A stretch of 37,555 nucleotides of DNA, from the NCBI GenBank assembly GCA_016928695.1, contig JAFGKF010000159.1, positions 1 through 37,555 of the forward strand. Reading direction: 5' to 3'. Source of the stretch: Candidatus Sumerlaeota bacterium. Its GTDB lineage: Bacteria; Sumerlaeota; Sumerlaeia; JABWBI01. A model generated the notes under the pieces. That model was not told the DNA's origin. It did not search any database and saw only the letters and a list, made by a program, of their open reading frames with translations. Below, piece after piece: positions 1,738 to 13,705 of this stretch. The position numbers were made by a program, and so were the translations under genes. Position 1 is the first letter of the stretch; each line of letters begins with the position of its first letter.

Positions 1738-1780
1738 GACGGCTCCTCCCAGGGGCATGGTTGATCCCGGTGCGTGTCGC

Positions 1781-1808
1781 GCGTCAAGGGCGAGCTTTTC
1801 CCTTGCGC
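1781..1808. promoter_or_regulatory. Inverted repeat in divergent intergenic region
   Basis: gcg-t-caaggg (1781-1790) pairs with cccttg-cgc (1800-1808): nine pairs with one bulged t and a 9-base loop. It lies between the divergent starts at 1737 and 1858, so it could be an operator serving either gene or a leader hairpin. No clear promoter boxes were identified around it. Confidence 0.25.
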
Positions 1809-1857
1809 TCCACGTGCGCCCTCACAGTGTGGGGCGAATCCAGGCCGGAGGTCACCC

Positions 1858-2949
1858 GTGTCCACAGCATCCCCTGACATCATCCCCGCATCCCCCATCG
1901 GCCCCGAGATGTTCGGCCCCGCGCGTCGCCTCGCGCTCCTCGCCGATGGCCGCTTCAACCATCTCAACGCCAAGACGTCCTTCGGCGTGCTGCGGTTCGC
2001 CCCCAATCCCGTGGTGGCGGTGATCGATGGCCAGCATGCGGGACAGACGGTCCACGAGGTGACGGGGATCGACCGAGACACGCCCATCGTCGCCACCGCC
2101 GAGGAGGCGATCGCCCTGGGGGCCGAGGTGTTGGTGATCGGCATCGCTCCCAAGGGGGGGATCCTGCCCGCCGCCTGGCGCCAGATGCTCGTGACCTGCC
2201 TGCAGGGTGGTGTCGACGTGGCCGCGGGTCTTCACACTTTCCTGGGCGAGGACCCCGACTTCCGCGCCGCCGCCGATGCCAACGGCCGCCGCATCTTCGA
2301 CGTCAGGCGCCCTCCCGCGGGCATCGGAGTGGCCGGGGGAAAGTGCCGCCACCTCGAGGGCAAGCGCATCGTGCTGTGCGCCGGGACCGACTGCTGTGTG
2401 GGCAAGAAGACGACGGGCCTGGCGCTTGAGGCTGAGCTGAAACGCCGTGGAGTGAGGGCCAAATTCGTCCCGACGGGGCAGACAGGGATCTTCTGCTGCG
2501 GGTGGGGCATCGCCATCGACCGCATGATCGCGGACTTCACCGCCGGGGCCATGGAGCGGCTCGTGCTCGCCGCGGCCGAGGAGGCCGACGTCATCCTGGT
2601 GGAGGGTCAGGGCTCCCTGCTTCACCCCGGCTACTCGGGTGTCACTCTCTCGTTCATCCACGGCACCATGCCGAGCCACATGGTTCTCACCGTGCCGTCC
2701 ACTCCCGTCGACATCGAGGATGAGTACGGCCTCGAGATGCCTCCCCTCACGGACATCATCGAGCTCCACGAGCACATCATGCGTCACATCCGCCCACTGC
2801 GGACGGTGGGGATCGCCCTCAACTCCTACACCGTCTCCGAGGCGGAGGCCCGCCGGCAGATCGACCGCTTCGGCCGGGAGACGGGTCTCCCCGTCGATGA
2901 CGTCATCCGCTTCGGCGCCGGGGCGATGGCCGACGCGCTGATGGGCTGA
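1858..2949 (+). CDS. DUF1611 family protein (DgcN-like)
   Basis: 363 residues from the GTG at 1858, selected because ggaggt (1847-1852) stands five bases upstream; longer readings lack such a site. The N-terminal part is a Rossmann-like domain (DUF1611_N type, 'LALLADGRFNHLNAKTSFGVLRF'). The C-terminal part carries the family P-loop-like motif GTDCCVGKKTT followed by 'FVPTGQTGIF' and 'ILVEGQGSLLHPGYSGVTL'. Characterised relatives (DgcN) act with the epimerase/racemase DgcA in D-amino-acid metabolism (D-glutamate N-acetylation). No DgcA-like enolase-superfamily gene is seen here, so the physiological role in this organism is uncertain. The stop lies 13 bases from the end of the convergent giant lipoprotein gene. 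Confidence 0.8.
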   Translation: MSTASPDIIPASPIGPEMFGPARRLALLADGRFNHLNAKTSFGVLRFAPNPVVAVIDGQHAGQTVHEVTGIDRDTPIVATAEEAIALGAEVLVIGIAPKGGILPAAWRQMLVTCLQGGVDVAAGLHTFLGEDPDFRAAADANGRRIFDVRRPPAGIGVAGGKCRHLEGKRIVLCAGTDCCVGKKTTGLALEAELKRRGVRAKFVPTGQTGIFCCGWGIAIDRMIADFTAGAMERLVLAAAEEADVILVEGQGSLLHPGYSGVTLSFIHGTMPSHMVLTVPSTPVDIEDEYGLEMPPLTDIIELHEHIMRHIRPLRTVGIALNSYTVSEAEARRQIDRFGRETGLPVDDVIRFGAGAMADALMG

Positions 2950-2962
2950 TTCGGCCGCCCCG

Positions 2963-5900
2963 TCACTCGACAGGGTCGAGGCGAACGGTCTCGGTCTCCG
3001 TGCGTCCGTTGCCGATCGTGATCAGTCGGCGATCCTCGCGGTGGCCGGAGTGCGCCACACGCAGAGTGAAGCTCCCGATCGGCTGGTGCTCGAGCCGCGC
3101 GACTCCCAGGTTGTCGGTGAAATGCTCCGCCTCGTTGGCATTGCGGGGCTGGGGGAGCTCCTCGCCCGAGGTCGTCAGCAGCTCCACACGCGCCTGGGCA
3201 ATCGGCTCTCCCTCATGCGTCTCGACGGTGACCACGAGTGTGCCGCCCTCATCGAAGACGAGGTCATGCTCGGTGTCACCCGGCCCCGGGATGGAGACCG
3301 TGTCAGCCAGAATCGGCGCGAAACCCGTGGCGAACGCGGTGATCTCATGCCACCCGTCGCTCAGGCCATCGAGCGCGTACATCCCCTCGGGATTCACTGA
3401 GATGTTCTCGCGGAGAACATCGCGCCCCCCCGCGTCGGTGACGATCGCAAAGAGGGTGGGCATCGGCTGCCCATTGGCCCGTGCGTAGGCGCGGCCCACG
3501 ACGCGCGCAGCCTCGCTGAGGGTGAAGTCGATGCCGGTGACCTCCTCACCGAATCCCACGGTGAGATCGCGAGTCGCATAGCCATAGTTGTCCTGCTCCC
3601 GGCGCACCAGGAGCGTGAGATCCCCCTCCTGCACCCTGTCCACCGTGTATTGGCCCGAGGAGTTGGTCCGAGCGCTGGCGTCGCCTCCGCGTCCCGAGGA
3701 CAGGAAGCTCTCGACCTCCGTGTCGCGCAGGGCGGTGATGCGAGCCCCGTCGATCGGCTCGCCCTCCGTGTTCCTCACGGTGCCGGAGATCGTGCTGCGG
3801 GGGAGCTCGATGTTGAAGGTCACATCGGCGCTCTCGATCGTCAGAGAGTCGGTGCGCAGTGGGATGTTTCCCCGTCGACGTGCACGCTGGGTGGCTGACA
3901 CCTGATAGGTGCCGGGGCTCATGTCGGAGATGGAGTAGTCGCCCGAGTCGTCCGTGACCGCGCTTCCGCTCTCACTGACGGGGTCATCGGCGCTGTCGCT
4001 TGTGAGGTCCACCTGGATGTTGCCCACGGGCTCCCCCTCGTCGGTGACGCGACCGGAGACCGTGAATCCCGGCTCGCGGACAAACACGACCTCGGTCTCC
4101 TCGTCCTCGCGGATCGTCACCGTCTGGCTCAGGCGGGCACCGCTCCTGTCTCCCCCTCCTCGACCGCCTCGGAATCCCCCGGCCTCGCTCATCGTCGCCA
4201 CGTACTGCCCAGGGGCGAGCCGGTCGAACATGAACTCCCCGGTCTCATCGGTGGTGGCGGCATCGAAGCCATTCGGCCCCTCGAGGAAGATGCCCGCGCC
4301 GGGCAGGAATTCCCCCTCGGCATCGATCACCCACCCGATGATCCTGCCACCGGTCGAGATGCGGAGGTCTCCGACATCGGTCACCTCACCCTCGCGGATG
4401 AGGATGTTCGACGTCTCCAGCCGTGCGAAGTCCCCGTGGGTCACAATGAGCCTGGTGTTGCCCGCGGGGGCTCCGAGCATCTCGAAGCGTCCCTCGGTGT
4501 TTGTCGTGGCCCCGCGATTGACCAGATCGTCTGCGAGATCTTCGAGGAAACCCTCATCGGGGAACGCCACACGGGCTCCGGGGAGCGGTGTGCGGTCGCG
4601 CGAGGAGACCACTCGCCCGACGACGGTTCCCCCCTGGCGAAGGACCAGGGTCAATTCCTCGGCCTCGCCTCCCGAGGGGATGACGGCGCGCGCCGTCGCC
4701 TCGAGATATCCCGGGGCGGTCGCCTCGATGGTGTGCTCACCGGGGGAGAGGTCGAGCATGGTGAACCGCCCCTCCTCGTCGGTGAGGTGCTGCGGGGCCT
4801 GACCTCGCCCCGGGGGGCGGAAGCCGCCGCCGCCAAAGAACGGCTGTGCCCGCGACCCGCGCTCGGAGACCAGGGCACCGGCGATCGGCTCCGGGGGCTG
4901 AGTGGCGGTCACCACTTGGCCACGGAGGATCCCCCCTCTGACCATCGTGATGACCACCTCTTCGGTCCTTGTGGCGTTGGAGACCTCGATGTTGCCGGCC
5001 ATCGCCGTGGCGTAGCCGGGGGAGGTGACGGTCATGCTCCACTCCCCTGCGACCACTCCCTCGATCTCGAATCGCCCCTCGGGATCGTTGAACTCTCGCT
5101 CGATGGGGGCCGCGCCGCCTCCGAATCCTCCCCCAGGTCCTCCCCCGGGTCCCCCTCCGCGGCGCCCCTGGCGCCGCGCGCTGACCTCGAAAGCGACCAC
5201 CGGATCGCCCGTGTACTCCTCAATGACGCGGCCCACCAGCACTCCCGCACGCTCGAGCACGAGCTCAACACTGGCCGTGGGAGCGGTGACGTCGAGGCTG
5301 GTCTGGTCGAACCCCATCGCCGAGGCTGACAGGGTGTGGGATCTCTCGTCGAGACCTGTGATCTCGAAACTTCCGGCCTCTGATGTCACAACCTGCCTGA
5401 AGGCGGGGCGCGACCGGTCCATGGCCACACAGGTGACCTGAGCCTCAGCCAGCGGCGTTCCCTCAGTGTCGACGACACGCCCCGCGATGGCGACGCCCGG
5501 ACTGAGCCGAAGTGTCACCTCCTCACTCTCCACACCGTCGAGGATCACCACGTCCTCGCTCGCCTGGTAGGTGTATCCCTCCGCCTGCGCCACCACGGTG
5601 TAGTCGCCGGGCAGCAGGTGCTCGAAGCGGAATCGGCCCTGAGCGTCGGTGTGTTCGATGTTTTCCCCCTGCTCATTTCCGCGGAAGAAAACACCCATCA
5701 CCCCGCCCCCACCGCGTCCCCACTGAGGGCCGTCCTCGGGTTGGCGGGCGTGCCGCACCTCGGCGTCGGCGATGGGGCGCTCCTCCTCGTCGATGACGCG
5801 GCCCACAAGCGTGCCGCCCTCGGTCAGCGTCAGATTGACCGGGGCGCGCACTCCCCCTGGCTCGACGCGGATGTCGCGCACCTCCGCCTGGGCGTACGAG

Positions 5901-8005
5901 GGGTGGCGAGCCAGCACGGCGAGGGGCTGGTCGGGCTGAACGCCGTCGAGCGAATAGCGACCATCGGCACCCGTCGTGGTGGTCTGGAGCAGACGCCACC
6001 CCCCGCCGGGACCGCCGCCGCCGGGACCGCCGCGGAATCCCCCTCGCCCACCGCCGTATCGCACTCCCACGGTGGCTCCTCCGATGGTGCGTCCGGCGGT
6101 GTCGAAGACCCGGCCCTGGATCCGCGCCGCGGGCTCGAGGTAGATGGTGTGCCCCAGAATGTCACTGCCGCTCACCGTCAGCGCCGTGCGGACCGCGGAC
6201 AGGTAGAGGGGAGCCTCGGCAAAGAGGTCCCAGACGCCCTCGCCCACATGCTCCACTCGGAAGAAACCCGTCTGATCTGTGAACGCATTCAGAGTGGCGT
6301 CGCCTCCCCTCAGCCGCACCTCGCCACCGATCACCGGTTCGCGCGTTCGGCGGTTGAGGACATGGCCGGCGAACGCAACGCCCTGCCCGAGACGGATGCG
6401 GATGCCTGAGACGATGGCACGGTCCTCCAGATCGATCCCCCTCAGCGTTGTTCCCGCGTGGCCAGGGGCGACGGCGTACAGTCGATGCTCGCCCTCGGGG
6501 AGAAAATGGGTCTGAAACGTCCCCCCGCTGACAGTGAACGTGTCTCCTTCGCTGCCGGAGAGCTCATGGATGGCCCGAACCTCGGCGCCGAGGAGACCTG
6601 TGTCGGTCACCTTCGAGACCACCTCACCCGTCACACTGGCGCCCCTCGGGACCTGAAGTGTCCGATGGGTGGATGGCGTGAGATCACGGAAGAGGGTCAC
6701 GGGAGCGGCACTTGCCCGGACCACGACGGATCGACTCTCACCCCGCCGGAGCCCCTCGACTGTGAAGGTCCCCGTGTCGTCGGTCAGAGTCCACTGATCG
6801 GGCTGAGCCAGTGGGATCGGAATCCGTGCGAACCAGTTGAAGGGACCCCGGAAGGGCATGGGGGAGTCGGGCATCAGCTGGACGAGGGCATCGGCGACGG
6901 GGCGACCTGCGGCATCCAGGACACGCCCCTGGATGGCCTGGGTCGCTCGCAGATCGAGCACTGTTCCGGCGAGCACCTCCCCCGGCAGTGTGAATGTGGG
7001 GAATGGGTCATCGAGTCTCAGGCCTCGCACTGTGGCGTGGAGATCGATGGGGCCCGGTGGCAGGTCGCGCAGTGTGAAGATGCCCCGGGCATCGCTCTGC
7101 GCCACGACACCGGTGTGCAGTGATTCGCCCCCCTCCATCTCAGAGGGGATGGTCGCCCAGATGTGCACCCCCTCGACGGGGGCACCGCTGGGGCCGTGGA
7201 CGAATCCCTCGATGCCCGCCCCCTCGGGCAGCAGAACATCGGTCAGCACTCCACCCCGCAGCGCCGCGGTCTCCCACCGCCGGAGTCGAACGGGGCCATG
7301 GCCCGGGGCGCTCACGTGGAGGTGGGAGTCAAGGGGGCGCTCGAGTGCGCTCAGCGTGAACTCCCCGGTGTCAGTCGCCGAGGAGCGGACGATCCACCAG
7401 CCCGACGCATGCTGGGCGGCGAAGTGGATCAGGCCCCCGGGAAGGGGGCTCCCATCGTGGGCCACCGCGCGGCCGGTGAGAGATGTTGTCCGCGGAACGG
7501 TCAGAGCGAGTCCCTCATAATCCATGCCCCAGTCGACCGAGATCGGTGCACCGACCAGAAACATCTCGCTCTCGGACAGCATCAGGGCCATCCACCATCG
7601 ACCGGGCTCCACCTCATCGATGCGGAGGAGCCCCTCGTCATCGGTGGTTGTCGTGTGTGCCGGCGCAATGTCCCAGAGCCCCTCCCGTTGGGGGAGATCG
7701 GCGGTGAGGACCGCGATGTGGGGGAGAAGACGGATCTCGAGGCCCGGGACTGGCTCACCCTCGGCGTCGCGGATGATGCCGGAGACGGAGCTCTGCGCCT
7801 GTGGGGTCTCCTGCAGGGGGATCGCGATGGCGTCGGGGGAACCTTCCGCCTCTTCGAGGGGGGGCTGTGCCTCTCCCTCGGTGGCGGATGGCGTCACAGT
7901 GGGTGTCTGAGTCGGAGTGTCCCCCGGCCCGCAGGCACCGAGTGCCAGCGCAAGCGCAAGACTGAGCAGAATGACGGGGAGTGATCCCCACCCACATCGG
8001 GACAT
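2963..8005 (-). CDS. Giant lipoprotein of ~17 carboxypeptidase-regulatory-like repeats
   Basis: About 1680 residues from the ATG at 8005 (gggag eight bases upstream; an in-frame GTG at 8020 adds only five residues). The signal peptide ends in the lipobox LGAC (Cys25, Gly at +2), followed by a Thr/Pro/Glu-rich linker to about residue 70. The rest is a chain of repeats of about 85-105 residues, each beginning like 'G.V.d..G.Pl.gA.V' and containing 'T d..G.f....l.pG.y.l...a.Gy', the pattern of CarboxypepD_reg / SdrD-B-like beta-sandwiches. I count 17. Repeats 7, 8, 10, 11 and 13 carry Gly/Arg/Phe-rich insertions of about 9-20 residues. No enzyme domain, no anchor other than the lipid, and no dockerin or adhesin end is seen. 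It is probably an extended cell-surface fibre or scaffold; the partner is unknown. Confidence 0.85.
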   Translation of the reverse strand: MSRCGWGSLPVILLSLALALALGACGPGDTPTQTPTVTPSATEGEAQPPLEEAEGSPDAIAIPLQETPQAQSSVSGIIRDAEGEPVPGLEIRLLPHIAVLTADLPQREGLWDIAPAHTTTTDDEGLLRIDEVEPGRWWMALMLSESEMFLVGAPISVDWGMDYEGLALTVPRTTSLTGRAVAHDGSPLPGGLIHFAAQHASGWWIVRSSATDTGEFTLSALERPLDSHLHVSAPGHGPVRLRRWETAALRGGVLTDVLLPEGAGIEGFVHGPSGAPVEGVHIWATIPSEMEGGESLHTGVVAQSDARGIFTLRDLPPGPIDLHATVRGLRLDDPFPTFTLPGEVLAGTVLDLRATQAIQGRVLDAAGRPVADALVQLMPDSPMPFRGPFNWFARIPIPLAQPDQWTLTDDTGTFTVEGLRRGESRSVVVRASAAPVTLFRDLTPSTHRTLQVPRGASVTGEVVSKVTDTGLLGAEVRAIHELSGSEGDTFTVSGGTFQTHFLPEGEHRLYAVAPGHAGTTLRGIDLEDRAIVSGIRIRLGQGVAFAGHVLNRRTREPVIGGEVRLRGGDATLNAFTDQTGFFRVEHVGEGVWDLFAEAPLYLSAVRTALTVSGSDILGHTIYLEPAARIQGRVFDTAGRTIGGATVGVRYGGGRGGFRGGPGGGGPGGGWRLLQTTTTGADGRYSLDGVQPDQPLAVLARHPSYAQAEVRDIRVEPGGVRAPVNLTLTEGGTLVGRVIDEEERPIADAEVRHARQPEDGPQWGRGGGGVMGVFFRGNEQGENIEHTDAQGRFRFEHLLPGDYTVVAQAEGYTYQASEDVVILDGVESEEVTLRLSPGVAIAGRVVDTEGTPLAEAQVTCVAMDRSRPAFRQVVTSEAGSFEITGLDERSHTLSASAMGFDQTSLDVTAPTASVELVLERAGVLVGRVIEEYTGDPVVAFEVSARRQGRRGGGPGGGPGGGFGGGAAPIEREFNDPEGRFEIEGVVAGEWSMTVTSPGYATAMAGNIEVSNATRTEEVVITMVRGGILRGQVVTATQPPEPIAGALVSERGSRAQPFFGGGGFRPPGRGQAPQHLTDEEGRFTMLDLSPGEHTIEATAPGYLEATARAVIPSGGEAEELTLVLRQGGTVVGRVVSSRDRTPLPGARVAFPDEGFLEDLADDLVNRGATTNTEGRFEMLGAPAGNTRLIVTHGDFARLETSNILIREGEVTDVGDLRISTGGRIIGWVIDAEGEFLPGAGIFLEGPNGFDAATTDETGEFMFDRLAPGQYVATMSEAGGFRGGRGGGDRSGARLSQTVTIREDEETEVVFVREPGFTVSGRVTDEGEPVGNIQVDLTSDSADDPVSESGSAVTDDSGDYSISDMSPGTYQVSATQRARRRGNIPLRTDSLTIESADVTFNIELPRSTISGTVRNTEGEPIDGARITALRDTEVESFLSSGRGGDASARTNSSGQYTVDRVQEGDLTLLVRREQDNYGYATRDLTVGFGEEVTGIDFTLSEAARVVGRAYARANGQPMPTLFAIVTDAGGRDVLRENISVNPEGMYALDGLSDGWHEITAFATGFAPILADTVSIPGPGDTEHDLVFDEGGTLVVTVETHEGEPIAQARVELLTTSGEELPQPRNANEAEHFTDNLGVARLEHQPIGSFTLRVAHSGHREDRRLITIGNGRTETETVRLDPVE
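5107..5165 (-). repeat. Glycine-rich loop (repeat 10 of giant lipoprotein)
   Basis: Low-complexity coding stretch giving repeated GGGPGGG-type residues inside the beta-sandwich unit of the giant lipoprotein, just before the conserved 'd..GRF' strand. A related loop lies at about 5995-6058 in repeat 7. The DNA is short ccc/ccg/cct runs, so it is prone to slippage. Confidence 0.6.
5995..6058 (-). repeat. Glycine-rich loop (repeat 7 of giant lipoprotein)
   Basis: Coding low-complexity tract producing GGGRGGFRGG and GPGGGGPGGG motifs. It occupies the same place in its repeat unit as the loop at 5107-5165. The position between two strands of the predicted sandwich suggests a flexible surface loop rather than a structural strand. 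Confidence 0.6.
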
Positions 8006-8020
8006 GGCACGAACTCCCAC

Positions 8021-8206
8021 ACCGTCGATCAGGGTGCTGGTCTCCCCATCTCACTCGCGCCCGCAGTCTCCCTCTCTGGCGGGGGGAACGGCAATGATTT
8101 TCAGCGATTCGCCCAACCCCAGGCGACCTCCCCTGGTCTTCATCCTTGCACTCTTGCAGGGGATGCGGAGGGTGTGCCAACACGTCAGGCCTGTGGAGGA
8201 AACGCG
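8021..8206. promoter_or_regulatory. Divergent intergenic region
   Basis: About 200 bases between the divergent lipoprotein genes starting at 8005 (minus) and 8207 (plus). It must hold both promoters. The least GC-rich part, around 8090-8112 (gcaatgattttcagcgattc), is the likeliest place, but I could not match convincing -35/-10 pairs with 16-18-base spacing. Confidence 0.35.
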
Positions 8207-9529
8207 GTGTTCAGAGTCATCCATGTGATTGCAGTCCTGGGGCTCCTGCTGGGGCTTGGGGCCTGCGACTCGTCCGAACCCATCACTCCGGTGACGACCA
8301 TCCAGTCCACCGTCTTCGCCCCCCATGCTCAGGGGGGGCAGTGGGAGACGGCGAGTGAGACCACTCGGCGCAATGTGTGGGACAACTATGAGAGGGAGTT
8401 CGAGGAGCTCCGCCGTGCCAAGGGCTGGCAGAGGCTCTGGCGTCTCGCGCGCGAGGGACACCACTTCTTCCCGGAGGAGAGACTCGCGTGGCTCAATCTC
8501 TCCACGGCGCTGTACATCTGGGGCGACTTCGGCCAGGCGATCACCGCGGCCCACGGGGCGCTGGCCGAGGAGCGGCGAGAGGATCACCACCCCGACACGG
8601 GCAACACGATGCGCCCGCAGGCCTGGTGCAACATCGCCAGCTGTCAGATCGAGCTGAGGCAGCTCGGTGAGGCTCTGACGTCCACCGATGAGGCGATTGC
8701 GATCAACGATCGGTTCGCCCGCGCGTGGCTTCTCCGGGGCGAGGTGCTTCATCGCCTCGGGCGCGATGCCGAGGCTCTGGAGTCGTACGAGACGGCCCTC
8801 GCACTCGAGCCTCAGCCCCCCGACATCGTCCCCTCGGACCACATCCTTCTCTCCGAGACGCTGCGTGCCCTCGGGCAAGACGAGGCCGCGGCGCAGGCAC
8901 TGCGGCGTGCCATCTCCGAGATGCCGATCGAGTTCGGCTTTCACTTCTATCTCGGCCGGATCCTGCGCGATCAGGGAGACCTCGAGGCGGCGCACTTCGA
9001 GTTTCAGCATGAGATCGCGCTTCGACCCGACAGTCCCTACCTCGAGCGGGCGCTCACGGCGCTGGGGGAGATGGCGGCGGAGGCCCAGTCAATGCCCGGG
9101 AGTGAGGCCCATCAGCCACTCCTCCGCCTTGCAGAGGCGGAGCAGCTTCGGTCTCAGGGAGACGTCGACGCGGCCATCGCGATCTGGGAGGAGCGGCTCG
9201 CCGCTCGCCCAGCGGATGAGAGCGCGATCTTTCTCCCGCTCATGGTCGCCCGGGCGCTGGCATCGGCGAGTCGCCCGGCGGAGGCCTCCGAGTGGTATGG
9301 GCGAGTGATCGAACGCGATCCACTTTTCGTGCCTGCCATCGTGGAGAGGGCTGAGGTCTTCGACTCACTGGGTGAGACGGATCGGGCACTCGACGCTCTG
9401 GTGGATGCCCAGCGGATCGATCCCTTCAACTGGCGACTGGAGCAGCACTACGCGGCCAATCCGCACCGCACGCGGGAGGTCCAGGTGCGAATGGAGGCGA
9501 GAGTGCAGTCGGAACCCGCCTCGCCCTGA
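8207..9529 (+). CDS. TPR-repeat lipoprotein
   Basis: 440 residues from the GTG at 8207; tggagga six bases upstream favours it over the GTG at 8174. The signal peptide ends LGAC with Cys20 and Asp at +2, which in enteric bacteria retains a lipoprotein in the inner membrane. The mature protein is helical with several tetratricopeptide units. The clearest run from 'AWCNIASCQIELRQLGEALTS' to 'RAWLLRGEVLHRLGRDAEAL', with further units 'LLSETLRALGQDEAAAQALR', 'LGRILRDQGDLEAAHFEF' and one near the end, 'ERAEVFDSLGETDRALDAL'. TPRs mediate protein contacts; no enzyme domain is visible. The gene ends 58 bases before the DUF5752 gene, so it may share transcription with the trehalose genes, although its job there is not evident. 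Confidence 0.8.
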   Translation: MFRVIHVIAVLGLLLGLGACDSSEPITPVTTIQSTVFAPHAQGGQWETASETTRRNVWDNYEREFEELRRAKGWQRLWRLAREGHHFFPEERLAWLNLSTALYIWGDFGQAITAAHGALAEERREDHHPDTGNTMRPQAWCNIASCQIELRQLGEALTSTDEAIAINDRFARAWLLRGEVLHRLGRDAEALESYETALALEPQPPDIVPSDHILLSETLRALGQDEAAAQALRRAISEMPIEFGFHFYLGRILRDQGDLEAAHFEFQHEIALRPDSPYLERALTALGEMAAEAQSMPGSEAHQPLLRLAEAEQLRSQGDVDAAIAIWEERLAARPADESAIFLPLMVARALASASRPAEASEWYGRVIERDPLFVPAIVERAEVFDSLGETDRALDALVDAQRIDPFNWRLEQHYAANPHRTREVQVRMEARVQSEPASP

Positions 9530-9587
9530 GCTTGACCTGCGAGGGGAAAACCTCAACCATGCCAGCGATCTTGTCGAAGAGGGTGAC

Positions 9588-10253
9588 ATGCTGGAGCCGT
9601 TTCGCATTCACGACTGCGCGCTGATTGTCCGCATGGGGGGGGTGCCCGATGCGATGAATCTGCGCGAGCTGCGCGACCGCGTTGTGACCTGCCCCCCGGA
9701 GTGCCTGTACCACCACTTCTGCGAGACGCTTCTGCGCGCCACCTTCGACGACCCGGAGTTTCGCAACGACTTCGCCGTCTGGGCGAGCCGGGCGCTCCAC
9801 GACCGCGCCCTGGCCGAGCAGCTCGGCGTGATCGATCCCTACACGTTCGACGACCGCGAGGCGCTGCGGGCCGAGGTGCTCGACATCATCGCGGACCGCC
9901 TGCATGAGCTCCCGATGGTCCCATGGGCCAAGAGGGGCGAGGAGTTCAACTTCATGCGCGCGGTCACCGTCGTCTTCGACACGGGGCATGATATCACCGA
10001 GCCCTCTGACCTCCCAGGGGCCATCGAGCGGATGACCCGGAGCAGTCTCTACTACCACTTTGTGGAGGCGCGCCGCCGCACCGATGGCGGCACCGATGAT
10101 TTCTCCACGTGGCTGAGTGCAGGCGACGGAGAGGCCAAGGCGCTGATCCAGGCTCTCCAGAGCGTCGATTTCTACTTCCTCACCCTCGGCGAGCTGAAGA
10201 CCAAGCTGATCCAGGTGACCCGGCGCGCTCTGAACAAGGGGGGACAGAGGTGA
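9588..10253 (+). CDS. DUF5752 family protein with internal duplication
   Basis: 221 residues from the ATG at 9588 (gaagaggg just upstream). The sequence fits DUF5752, a family of unknown function seen beside trehalose synthase genes. Two copies of one domain of about 110 residues are visible: LYHHF (40-44) and LYYHF (154-158), DFAVW (61-65) and DFSTW (171-175), DPYTF (83-87) and DFYFL (194-198), LRAEVLDII (93-101) and LKTKLIQVT (203-211). The constant offset of 110-114 residues argues for tandem duplication. No signal peptide or membrane segment, so it is cytoplasmic. Its stop overlaps the treT GTG, so the two are translationally coupled and a TreT accessory or regulatory role is reasonable inference. 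The family name is recalled, not searched. Confidence 0.7.
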   Translation: MLEPFRIHDCALIVRMGGVPDAMNLRELRDRVVTCPPECLYHHFCETLLRATFDDPEFRNDFAVWASRALHDRALAEQLGVIDPYTFDDREALRAEVLDIIADRLHELPMVPWAKRGEEFNFMRAVTVVFDTGHDITEPSDLPGAIERMTRSSLYYHFVEARRRTDGGTDDFSTWLSAGDGEAKALIQALQSVDFYFLTLGELKTKLIQVTRRALNKGGQR

Positions 10254-11485
10254 GCATCTCCCTTGCAGCCTACACGGATGTGGTCGGTGCTCCGGCCATC
10301 GAGCAGCTGCATCAGCTGGCTGACGATCTGGCGGGGATGCGAGTGGTGCACGTCAACTCCACCAAGTCGGGTGGGGGAGTGGCGGAGATCCTCTCGTGGC
10401 TGATCCCACTGATGAACGAGCTCGGCCTCGATGCCTCGTGGGAGGTGATCGAGGGCAACGCGCCCTTCTTCGATGTCACCAAGAGCATGCACAACGGATT
10501 CCAGGGCAATCCCGTCGATCTGAGCGATGAGGCGAAGGCCGCCTACATCGAGACCAATGTCTCGAACGCCGAGCGCCTCCGCCCCATTCTCGAGGGAGCG
10601 GATTTCGTCTTCATTCACGACCCCCAGCCGGCCTCACAGATCGAGCTGACCCCCCATCGGAGGGGGAAATGGATCTGGCGCTGCCACATCGACGCCTCCC
10701 ATCCCTCGCGCTCCGTCTGGAAGTTCGTCAGCCAGTTCGCACGGCAGTACGACGCGAGCATCTTCTCGATGCCCCAGTTCGCCAAGTCGCTTCCGCATCC
10801 GCAGTTCATCATCGCGCCGAGCATCGATCCGCTCAGCGAGAAGAACCGCGAGCTGGCCCCCGGTGAGATCAAGTCTGTGCGCGACCGATTCGGACTCGAT
10901 CCGAAGAGGCCGATTCTCACCCAGATCTCACGCTTCGACCGGTTCAAGGATCCCCTCGGAGTGGTCCGCGCATTCCGCACGCTGCAGATCGACCCGCGCC
11001 CCCAGCTCGTCCTCGCGGGGGGCGGCGCCACCGACGATCCCGAGGGGCAGATGGTCCTCGACGAGGTGCGAAAGGCCGCCGACGGCGATCCCGACATCCA
11101 CATCCTCTTCCTTCCCGGCGATGCTCACACCACGATCAACGCCCTTCAGAGAGCCTCGGACATCATTCTCCAGAAGTCCACGCGCGAGGGATTCGGCCTG
11201 ACGGTCACCGAGGGGCTGTGGAAGGCCAAGCCCGTGCTCGGCGGCGACACGGGCGGCATTCGGCTCCAGGTCTTCAACTATCACACGGGATTTCTGGTCA
11301 ACACGCCGGAGGGGGCCGCGCATCGCATCCGCTATCTGCTCCAGCACCGCGAGCGGATGAGAGCGATGGGGCGCAAGGGGCGAGAGTTTGTCCGCGAGAA
11401 TTTCCTCCTGACCCGCCATCTGCGCGAGTACTTGACTCTCATGCTCGGCCTCAAGCAGGAGCTCCGAGATCACCTCGCGGCCTGA
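10250..11485 (+). CDS. treT: Trehalose synthase TreT (GT4 glycosyltransferase)
   Basis: 411 residues from the GTG at 10250, which overlaps the upstream TGA by two bases. Characteristic TreT blocks are present: 'HVNSTKSGGGVAEIL' (residues 34-48), 'WEVIEGN' (64-70), 'FFDVTKSMHNGFQG' (73-86), 'FIHDPQP', and the C-terminal GT-B donor motif E-x7-E as EGFGLTVTE (Glu313 and Glu321). Family enzymes make trehalose reversibly from an NDP-glucose and free glucose in one step, without a phosphorylated intermediate. Length is as expected (about 410). It is followed ten bases later by otsB, giving a second route in the same operon. The enzyme should be cytoplasmic. A generic GT4 is the alternative, but the N-terminal block is quite specific. 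Confidence 0.85.
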   Translation: MSISLAAYTDVVGAPAIEQLHQLADDLAGMRVVHVNSTKSGGGVAEILSWLIPLMNELGLDASWEVIEGNAPFFDVTKSMHNGFQGNPVDLSDEAKAAYIETNVSNAERLRPILEGADFVFIHDPQPASQIELTPHRRGKWIWRCHIDASHPSRSVWKFVSQFARQYDASIFSMPQFAKSLPHPQFIIAPSIDPLSEKNRELAPGEIKSVRDRFGLDPKRPILTQISRFDRFKDPLGVVRAFRTLQIDPRPQLVLAGGGATDDPEGQMVLDEVRKAADGDPDIHILFLPGDAHTTINALQRASDIILQKSTREGFGLTVTEGLWKAKPVLGGDTGGIRLQVFNYHTGFLVNTPEGAAHRIRYLLQHRERMRAMGRKGREFVRENFLLTRHLREYLTLMLGLKQELRDHLAA

Positions 11486-11495
11486 GGCCTCCCCG

Positions 11496-12287
11496 ATGCC
11501 CACGGTGCCTCGCTCTCTCCCCGACGACTGGTTCGGCCCTCTCGCCCGTGCCTCCGCGCGGCTGCTCATGCTCGACTACGATGGGACGCTTGCGCCGTTT
11601 CGCGAGGAGCGCGACGAGGCGGTGCCGTATCCCGGCGTGCGCGAGACCCTCTCGGCGATTCTGGAGACGGGCCGCACGAGGCTGGTGATTGTCAGTGGGC
11701 GGGCGATCGACGATCTTCTCCCACTGCTCGCCCTCGATCCGGCGCCTGAGATCTGGGGATCGCACGGCTGGGAGCAGAGGCTGCCCAGCGGTGAGCGACA
11801 TCTTCTCCCCGCGCCCGGGGAGTCCACCGATGCCCTCGCCCAGGCCCAATCCCTCGCGGAGTCTCATGGTCTCGCCGGCCGCTGTGAGACGAAACCCGCC
11901 TGCCTCGCTGTGCACTGGCGAGGGCTGAGCGAGAGCGAGACAGCGGAGGTCCGCGAGCGTGCCAGCGCCCTGTGGCGTCCCCTCGCGGAGAACGTAGGCC
12001 TCGAGCTGCGGGAGTTCGATGGGGGCCTGGAGCTGCGCATCCCGGGACGCGACAAGGGGTGCGTGGTCGAAGCGATTCTCAGCGGGGCGCCGCCCGGCGC
12101 GTTCGCCGCCTATCTCGGCGACGATCTCACGGACGAGGATGCCTTCCGGGCCCTGGGCTCACGCGGTCTCTCTGTGCTCGTGCGTGAGAAGTCCCGTGCC
12201 AGTGCCGCCTCTCACTGGATCCACCCCCCCGAGGAATTGCTGGCATTTCTCCAGAGATGGGCGCAGTGTGATCAGTCGAGACCATGA
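11496..12287 (+). CDS. otsB: Trehalose-6-phosphate phosphatase
   Basis: 263 residues, HAD superfamily. The catalytic motif I is LLMLDYDGTLAPF near residues 24-36 with the nucleophile Asp and the general acid Asp two residues later. Motif II is 'LVIVSGR', the 'SHGWE' block resembles the 'GxHGxE' of OtsB, the Lys of 'RDKGCVVEAIL' is motif III, and motif IV is YLGDDLTDEDAF. It removes phosphate from trehalose-6-phosphate to give trehalose. gagg about eight bases before the ATG is a plausible ribosome site. The last four bases overlap the otsA start (ATGA), so OtsB and OtsA are translationally coupled in the order B-A. Confidence 0.92.
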   Translation: MPTVPRSLPDDWFGPLARASARLLMLDYDGTLAPFREERDEAVPYPGVRETLSAILETGRTRLVIVSGRAIDDLLPLLALDPAPEIWGSHGWEQRLPSGERHLLPAPGESTDALAQAQSLAESHGLAGRCETKPACLAVHWRGLSESETAEVRERASALWRPLAENVGLELREFDGGLELRIPGRDKGCVVEAILSGAPPGAFAAYLGDDLTDEDAFRALGSRGLSVLVREKSRASAASHWIHPPEELLAFLQRWAQCDQSRP

Positions 12288-13705
12288 CTGACACATCACA
12301 GCGGCTCATTGTCGTCTCCAATCGCCTCCCCATTGTCGTCTCCGAGGAGAACGGCCAATGGCGAGTTTCACCCGGCTCCGGTGGACTCGTCACCGCACTT
12401 GCGCCGGTTCTCCGTCAGCGGGGCGGGGTGTGGATCGGCTCGCCCGGCACACCGCCGGAGGCATCCGTCGACTCCCTTCTGGAGGAGGTCTCTCAGCGGG
12501 AGGGCTACACACTGCGTCCGGTCGCCCTCGAGGAGGATCTGATCAAGGGCTACTACGGCGGCTTCTCGAATGAGATCCTCTGGCCGCTCTTCCACGACAT
12601 GCTCGGCCGGTGCAACTTCGAGCCCGGCCACTGGGAGCCCTATCGCGAGGCGAACCGACGCTTCGCCCAGGTGATCGCCAGGGAGACGCAGCCCGACGAT
12701 TTCGTCTGGGTTCAGGACTATCACCTTCTGCTCGTCGGCGAGGCGCTCCATGGGATGGGTGTCGGCCGCCGCTGCGGCTTCTTCCTTCACATCCCGTTCC
12801 CCCCGCCCGACATCTTCCGCCGCCTGCCGTGGCGCCGCGACATCATCCAGGGGATGCTGCGCTATCGGCTTCTCGGCTTTCACACCGAGCACGACCGCCG
12901 CAATTTCCTGCGCACCGTCCGCGCGGTCATCCCCGAGGCCAGGGTCGAGTCACGCCGCCGGACCTCGATCGTCACGCTCGGCGACCTGGTCACGCGCGTC
13001 GGGGCGTTTCCCATCGGGATCGACTTCGACCAGTTTCAGGGGACGGCCAAGACCCACGAGGTCGATGAGTCGGCCTGGCTCTTCCACGAGAATCTCCCCA
13101 ACCGCAAGATCATCCTCGGCGTCGATCGCCTCGACTACACGAAGGGCATCCGGCGCCGCCTGCGCGCCTTCATGCTCTTCCTCGAGCAGCACCCCGAGTT
13201 TCACAAGCATGTGTCGCTCGTGCAGGTCGTCGTCCCCAGCCGCGTCGACGTCCCCGAGTATCAGGCGATCAAGCGGCAGCTGGACGAGATGGTGGGCCAC
13301 ATCAACGGCAAGTTCTCGTACGAGGGCTGGGTGCCCGTGCACTATGAGTTCCGGAGCATCCCCTTCGTCCAGCTGATCGGGGCCTATCGCGCCTCGGAGA
13401 TCTGCCTGGTCACCCCCCTGCGCGACGGCATGAATCTCGTCGCCAAGGAGTACTGCGCGAGCCACATCGACAACCGCGGCGTCCTGATTCTCAGCGAGTT
13501 CGCGGGTGCCGCCGCGCAGCTGAAGATCGGGGCCATCATGGTCAATCCCAACGACATCGTCGGGATCGCCGACGCGATCCACCAGGCGCTGACCATGGAC
13601 GAGGAGGAGAAGGTGGCGCGCATGAAGCGAATGCGCGTGGAGGTCCGCCGCAACGACGTCCACCGCTGGGCGGCGAGCTTCCTCCGCGCGGCGGATCTCG
13701 ACTGA
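12284..13705 (+). CDS. otsA: Trehalose-6-phosphate synthase
   Basis: 473 residues, glycosyltransferase family 20. Visible signatures: N-terminal RLIVVSNRLPIVV, 'FVWVQDYHLLLV', 'FFLHIPFPPPDIFRRLPWR', 'LLGFHTEHDRRNFL', the donor-site 'GVDRLDYTKGIRRRL', and 'TPLRDGMNLVAKEY' with the following 'SEFAGAA'. It joins UDP- or other NDP-glucose to glucose-6-phosphate to give trehalose-6-phosphate, the substrate of the overlapping otsB product. Full length for the family; all expected binding residues by eye are present. It is the last gene of the plus-strand trehalose block and faces the Dabb gene 13 bases away. Confidence 0.94.
   Translation: MTDTSQRLIVVSNRLPIVVSEENGQWRVSPGSGGLVTALAPVLRQRGGVWIGSPGTPPEASVDSLLEEVSQREGYTLRPVALEEDLIKGYYGGFSNEILWPLFHDMLGRCNFEPGHWEPYREANRRFAQVIARETQPDDFVWVQDYHLLLVGEALHGMGVGRRCGFFLHIPFPPPDIFRRLPWRRDIIQGMLRYRLLGFHTEHDRRNFLRTVRAVIPEARVESRRRTSIVTLGDLVTRVGAFPIGIDFDQFQGTAKTHEVDESAWLFHENLPNRKIILGVDRLDYTKGIRRRLRAFMLFLEQHPEFHKHVSLVQVVVPSRVDVPEYQAIKRQLDEMVGHINGKFSYEGWVPVHYEFRSIPFVQLIGAYRASEICLVTPLRDGMNLVAKEYCASHIDNRGVLILSEFAGAAAQLKIGAIMVNPNDIVGIADAIHQALTMDEEEKVARMKRMRVEVRRNDVHRWAASFLRAADLD

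Follow-up and report, generated by a model that had tools for sequence, protein, structure and literature searches.

A predicted Sumerlaeota lipoprotein of 17 tandem transthyretin-like units with conserved unit order and lineage-specific glycine-rich loops

Results

A gene for a 17-unit protein with a lipoprotein-like N-terminus

The window that we analysed is a 37,555-nucleotide stretch of DNA from a Candidatus Sumerlaeota bacterium (contig JAFGKF010000159.1). Its minus strand carries, from 8005 to 2963, a gene with an ATG start that encodes a protein of 1680 amino acids, referred to here as the 17-unit protein (Table 1). A longer open reading frame over the same region (2963–8020, GTG start, 1685 amino acids) contains the ATG at 8005 in frame, and since the sequence GGGAG lies 8 nt upstream of this ATG, position 8005 is the likely start and 1680 amino acids the likely length. 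The N-terminus has the marks of a bacterial lipoprotein, namely a signal peptide and a lipobox (LALGA/C) with its cysteine at residue 25, and under the lipobox rule, which we take to apply here, Cys25 would be the residue that is lipidated. The other cysteines are Cys4, in the signal peptide, and Cys859, and the protein has 1 lysine against 135 arginines over its 1680 residues; both halves of the orthologue from genome G001 (see below) have 0 lysines. We note that open reading frames of exported-like proteins have a lower pooled K/(K+R) than those of cytoplasm-like proteins (0.054, n = 17, versus 0.125, n = 39; Mann-Whitney P 0.0026) in a sample drawn from 11 contigs and the window, with crude gene calls and with ten multi-TM open reading frames excluded.

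Close to the gene, at 196–1155, lies a gene for a CsgG-family lipoprotein-like product with a glycine-rich stretch, which is not found beside the orthologue in G001. Further along, 9510–13705 encodes a DUF5752 protein, a TreT-like trehalose synthase, a trehalose-phosphatase and an OtsA-type synthase, placing two trehalose routes in one cluster.

Table 1 Features of the gene for the 17-unit protein and its neighbours, in window coordinates
Feature	Position	Strand	Basis
17-unit CarboxypepD_reg lipoprotein gene (predicted), stop included	2963..8005	-	ORF, translation, Pfam
Shine-Dalgarno-like GGGAG, 8 nt upstream of ATG	8014..8018	-	sequence
Predicted signal peptide and lipobox LALGA/C; Cys25 the likely lipidated residue	7931..8005	-	sequence
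Pro/Thr/Glu-rich tether, 46 residues (26-71)	7793..7930	-	sequence
Units 1-6, residues 72-626	6128..7792	-	unit cut; PF13620 matches, unit 2 not at E<=0.001
Units 7-17, residues 627-1680; order kept in orthologues of four families	2966..6127	-	unit cut, unit matching, AlphaFold
Unit 7 glycine insertion, strand 2-3 loop, strong	5990..6058	-	Gly windows, codons, AlphaFold
Unit 8 glycine insertion, strand 2-3 loop, moderate	5666..5737	-	Gly windows, codons, AlphaFold
Unit 10 glycine insertion, strand 2-3 loop, strong	5102..5170	-	Gly windows, codons, AlphaFold
Unit 11 glycine insertion, strand 2-3 loop, weak	4784..4843	-	unit cut, codons, AlphaFold; neither Gly threshold passed
Unit 13 glycine insertion, different site (strand 5-6 loop), moderate	4130..4180	-	Gly windows, codons, AlphaFold
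TPR protein gene, divergent, own lipobox-like N-terminus; pairing kept in same-family G001	8174..9529	+	
DUF1611 gene, convergent neighbour, kept in G001	1774..2949	+	

The protein is built of old, tandem CarboxypepD_reg units

Comparison with Pfam indicated that the CarboxypepD_reg family (PF13620) matches 17 stretches of the protein in tandem (E 6.8e-143; 465.8 bits against a gathering cut-off of 32.3). A six-frame scan of the window's own genome at E<=0.001 recovered 16 of these stretches in the gene, with unit 2 falling below threshold, and in our own division of the protein the 17 units cover residues 72–1680 end to end, as many as the original prediction had counted. The units share a mean identity of 31% (maximum 44%) and therefore represent old duplications. 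A recent expansion of the repeat was rejected because of this divergence and because orthologous units match in order.

We found no catalytic domain among the best 25 of the 27 Pfam families that match the protein, so that neither of the outcomes that would have spoken against the original prediction (fewer than about ten units, or a catalytic domain hidden among them) was observed. Specifically, no peptidase family, such as an M14 carboxypeptidase would show, is present among the best 25 of the 27 matches at E<=1 (the remaining two rank below E 0.089), and no adhesive domain was recognised among the same best 25 of 27 families. A hidden enzyme was also considered and rejected, as the same beads account for the cross-hits to Dioxygenase_C, fn3_3, EMC7, Big_1 and other families, all of them partial.

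The modelled units are predicted to fold as transthyretin-like beta-sandwiches

An AlphaFold model of units 10–13, made with a 16-row alignment of tandem units taken from the window and from related loci, consists of transthyretin-like beta-sandwiches (mean pLDDT 84.8, pTM 0.71), and its segments with pLDDT below 50 are loops of units 10, 11, 12 and 13. A lipid-anchored chain of beta-sandwich beads, as originally proposed, is thus what the lipobox motif, the 17 units and the predicted fold together indicate. For units 7–17 (1054 residues) the model reached a pLDDT of 73.0 and a pTM of 0.41, and because of the latter value we do not draw on its bead-to-bead geometry; an arc or a compact form of the modelled chain is possible.

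The best PDB match by Foldseek is BaTIE (E 8.6e-14). VIA-align ranks single transthyretin-like domains at the top, with human carboxypeptidase D (5aq0) at Z 12.6 and an rmsd of 1.7 over 82 residues. Multi-bead proteins follow at Z 9–11; among them are the pilin 3phs (185 residues aligned at an rmsd of 4.5, Z 10.9) and the BOS complex subunit NOMO (9c7u; 161 residues at an rmsd of 10.3, Z 9.6). SlaB of a Sulfolobus S-layer (8qox_B) is matched at Z 10.0 with an rmsd of 21.6 over 217.

Glycine-rich insertions occupy long loops

Glycine-rich insertions had been proposed for units 7, 8, 10, 11 and 13. Stretches of 20 residues with at least 9 glycines occur three times in the protein, twice in unit 7 and once in unit 10, whereas 2000 shuffles of its sequence yielded 0.21 of them on average and no more than 2 at a time; when the threshold is lowered to at least 8, units 8 and 13 also pass, whereas the insertion of unit 11 (FFGGGGFRPPGRG) passes neither threshold. 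The proposal therefore holds strongly for units 7 and 10 and moderately for units 8 and 13, but only weakly for unit 11. The model of units 10–13 places the insertions in units 10 and 11 immediately ahead of strand 3; in unit 13 the insertion comes after strand 5 and ahead of strand 6. In the larger model, of units 7–17, the corresponding loops in units 7 and 8 have pLDDT below 50 and precede the equivalent strand. The models thus agree with the idea that four of the insertions stand ahead of the same strand, and their low confidence in these loops is consistent with the flexible glycine patches originally envisaged, since the insertions are predicted to be disordered. Judging from the alternation of strands, the strand 2–3 loop should sit at the chain-entry end of its bead, beside the preceding bead. 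The glycine codons of the loops are mixed (15 GGC, 14 GGG, 13 GGA and 8 GGT), and slippage of GGN triplets or a fresh expansion is for this reason not favoured.

The order of the units is fixed across four families

Long matches to the 17-unit protein were found in five genomes, namely G001 (which belongs to the window's family, f1), G012 and G026 (both family f12), G008, and G005; a sixth, G023, yielded a fragment. The G001 orthologue is split over two contigs at 53% and 42% identity, and its distal half (53%) is better conserved than its N-terminal half (42%). In G012 the orthologue has 28% identity and 17 units in a frame of 1642–1687 amino acids, in G026 it lies on two contigs, and in G008 and G005 it has 12 units that correspond to units 6–17. 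A class-wide profile search of 39 genomes returned 7 at E<=1e-60; six of the seven had each contributed one sequence to the profile, so that G023 alone is independent.

When units were matched individually, the G012 protein had 14 of its 17 in register. For G026 the count was 11 of 11 in the C-terminal part and 3 of 6 in the N-terminal part, which is truncated; the two pieces from G001 gave 7 of 7 and 8 of 8 (locus L072 is the second piece again), and G005 and G008 gave 8 of 12 each. The same register sought in 29 other proteins of six or more units extended to a maximum of 4 units. The unit profile was derived from the window protein, which biases the analysis towards finding units but not towards finding their order. 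Unit order is fixed across orthologues of four families, most firmly for units 7–17.

Loop position is conserved and glycine content is not

Loops were compared across relatives, as had been suggested. In the orthologues from other families, the segments at the sites of units 7, 8, 10 and 11 are 24–56, 34–39, 37–40 and 33–38 residues long and contain 1 to 6 glycines, whereas the same aligned segments of the window protein are 36–41 residues long with 8 to 16 glycines. Long loops thus occur at the same sites in three other families without being glycine-rich, indicating that the loop site is conserved and that the glycine is lineage-specific. The unit 13 segment has 5–6 glycines of 39 residues in G005 and G008 and 2–4 of 37 in G012 and G026. 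Within the window's own family, the G001 orthologue has a glycine-rich loop in unit 13 and, in the part that can be read, in unit 10, but not in unit 11.

The contigs that carry the G001 orthologue break in the loops of units 7 and 10 (end of C282 and start of C77; loci L053 and L054), as if glycine-coding, G+C-rich DNA had broken the assembly there. In the G008 and G005 proteins (L058 and L059), the strand 2–3 loops of units 7, 8 and 10 are extended by long hydrophobic insertions, which by eye resemble helices.

Glycine windows (at least 9 per 20 residues) inside units are absent from all 14 other multi-unit open reading frames of one set, setting aside the G001 orthologue. In a second set 3 of 23 have such windows, one being L072, the G001 orthologue, and the other two, L087 and L088, having them outside their units. 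The seven open reading frames with units in the window's own genome show one weak window (at least 8 per 20), in C361.

Orthologous genes share no common operon partner

The TPR neighbour is found at E<=1e-20 in 2 of 41 genomes, both of family f1. In G012 and G026 the orthologue lies directly downstream of a gene for an ABC_tran_2 permease, preceded in G026 by an ATPase gene, and begins with a plain hydrophobic segment without a lipobox; in the stretches examined, this permease neighbour occurs in f12 alone. Neighbours in G005 and G008 include sigma factor and spermine-synthase-like genes. An operon partner common to all four families was not present in the stretches examined, as expected of a stand-alone structural protein, and with the TPR gene found in f1 and the permease gene in f12 we dropped a shared operon as a clue to function.

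Discussion

We think it probable that the 17-unit protein is a structural lipoprotein of the cell envelope, a passive and flexible rod of 17 beads that serves as a spacer, scaffold or tether. Once the signal peptide had been cleaved and Cys25 lipidated, the 46-residue tether would be followed by the 17 transthyretin-like beads in a row, which may together form a flexible rod. Human NOMO, which we used for the lower estimate of length, has 12 beads. Scaling by analogy from the published lengths of NOMO (a 27 nm rod) and BaTIE (19 nm for four domains), as parts of those reports give them, the rod might very roughly be 40–80 nm long. The long loops of units 7, 8, 10 and 11 would form disordered collars that differ in composition by family and are glycine-rich in the window's lineage. 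Because the distal units 7–17 are under constraint on their order, they would be the likeliest binding part. We favour a passive envelope rod because the protein consists of beads only, with no enzyme and no recognised adhesive tip, and because its gene stands alone.

Two observations pull against the simplest form of this explanation, in addition to the pTM of 0.41 of the larger model, which leaves room for an arc or a compact form. The fixed order of units 7–17 implies that more than length matters and argues against a mere stalk of variable length, which would need less than a fixed unit order. In f12, moreover, the predicted N-terminus without a lipobox and the adjacent ABC permease gene point to an inner-membrane, periplasmic setting there. 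Whereas the lipobox and the estimated length suggest that the protein projects outward, the f12 orthologues and the parallel with NOMO suggest a periplasmic spacer, that is, a rod held at one membrane that contacts the other membrane or the peptidoglycan and sets spacing or bears force, as NOMO does in the ER. Since a spacer of this kind is the passive rod with its location specified, confidence in the two overlaps; we regard the spacer as possible but rather doubtful. NOMO2 is the best PDB sequence match to the protein (E 1.3e-6 overall) and NOMO repeats match by fold, but the sequence match is mostly to one domain pair (best single stretch, i-Evalue 0.0021), the window protein has a lipobox, and a rod of the estimated 40–80 nm would have to bend or lie flat to fit the ordinary periplasm, which is narrower. 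The f12 orthologues, which look membrane-anchored and follow the permease gene, speak for a spacer, as does the finding, in passages of PMC8327139, that a lengthened NOMO widens the ER lumen.

That the protein is a fibrillar adhesin, with the beads as stalk and one unit or set of loops binding a surface or another cell, we consider unlikely. The anchored tandem beads are what such a stalk would look like, and transthyretin-clan stalk domains are described as common in fibrillar adhesins in parts of PMC8286594; the definition given there, however, includes at least one adhesive domain, which was not recognised among the best 25 of 27 Pfam families. There is also no distinct tip, as unit 17 is an ordinary unit, and the better conservation of the distal half in G001 is the reverse of what a fast-evolving tip would show. 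We give still less credence to a self-assembling matrix or S-layer subunit with the glycine loops as sticky patches. The NCBIfam model of the Kuenenia S-layer glycoprotein Kustd1514 (NF052345) matches 10 stretches of the protein, SlaB is among the fold matches, and the mixed glycine codons argue against a fresh triplet expansion; yet the match scores 104.6 bits where the model's cut-off is 1400, orthologues of other families lack the glycine enrichment, and a lipid anchor fits a tethered molecule.

For the loops alone, and compatibly with a passive rod as the explanation of the whole protein, neutral drift is an account that we hold to be plausible, if somewhat less likely than not: fast-evolving loops would fill with G+C-rich codons in a genome of 67% G+C. 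Orthologues from contigs of 49–56% G+C do not have such loops, and the single lysine against 135 arginines is another sign of G+C pressure. A pure G+C effect is weakened, however, by G008, which at 65% G+C has no glycine loops in units 7, 8, 10 and 11; the other multi-unit proteins of the window's own genome are likewise free of glycine loops save for the weak window in C361, and G001 keeps them in units 10 and 13 at 53% identity. A further, improbable alternative is that the rod, in contrast to an expandable stalk, is a measured scaffold in which each bead is fixed in identity and place across the four families of Sumerlaeia and a row of contact collars, formed by the loops at the ends of beads 7, 8, 10 and 11, is tuned by lineage to a partner, be it a membrane, a polysaccharide or a second rod, with a collar chemistry of glycine, arginine and phenylalanine in one family and hydrophobic, perhaps helical, residues in others.

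Comparison with known systems

The original prediction went further in proposing a new class of surface fibre or matrix protein, and this is unsupported because Planctomycetota, Myxococcota and other groups have comparable proteins of many units, while the glycine loops lie outside the conserved design. CarboxypepD_reg proteins of 6–18 units are encoded in Corallococcus, in Planctomycetota, in Acidobacteria-type and Verrucomicrobia-type MAGs and in the same class, with further ones in the window's own genome. Tandem proteins of this kind from Planctomycetota, Myxococcota and Sumerlaeota share the domain with the 17-unit protein and, in many cases, a hydrophobic N-terminal segment for export or anchoring, but differ from it in having at most 4 units in register and no glycine windows inside units. 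Such genes can lie side by side: one contig (L061, G013:C12, 1996–15722) has four adjacent multi-unit genes (636 to 1367 amino acids), several with lipobox-like starts, and Corallococcus (Myxococcota; L074 and L080) has several neighbouring genes for proteins of 9–12 units. Among the papers listed by literature searches, none describes the family of the 17-unit protein or gives long CarboxypepD_reg chains a role, and the text of a paper on Sumerlaeota (PMC8092238) has none of six envelope terms. The protein is a further member of a widespread, little-studied kind, with lineage-specific decoration.

The surface protein BaTIE and the shaft pilins of Gram-positive bacteria (BcpA, GBS52, SpaA and SpaD) have tandem transthyretin-clan beads in common with the 17-unit protein, which differs from them in its predicted lipid anchor in place of a sortase motif. 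A CnaB/SpaA stalk stabilised by Lys-Asn isopeptide bonds needs a lysine in each unit. With 1 lysine in 1680 residues, and with Cys859 as the sole cysteine besides Cys4 and Cys25, stabilisation of the units by isopeptide or disulfide bonds is excluded.

Human NOMO is likewise a chain of transthyretin/Ig-like beads, but it is an ER membrane protein of a translocon complex (BOS), where its partners are TMEM147 and nicalin, and the 17-unit protein is a predicted bacterial lipoprotein. Passages of PMC8327139 and PMC12262048 report the NOMO bead-rod to be a membrane spacer and force-bearer, and the former names bacterial BaTIE as the nearest structural match of NOMO. Long chains of CarboxypepD_reg beads occur in several poorly cultivated phyla, and the family described here can be traced unit by unit over four families, with loops that are constant in place and change in chemistry. 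It thereby offers a tractable case for learning what function such rods have in bacterial envelopes, and whether it parallels that of the eukaryotic spacer NOMO.
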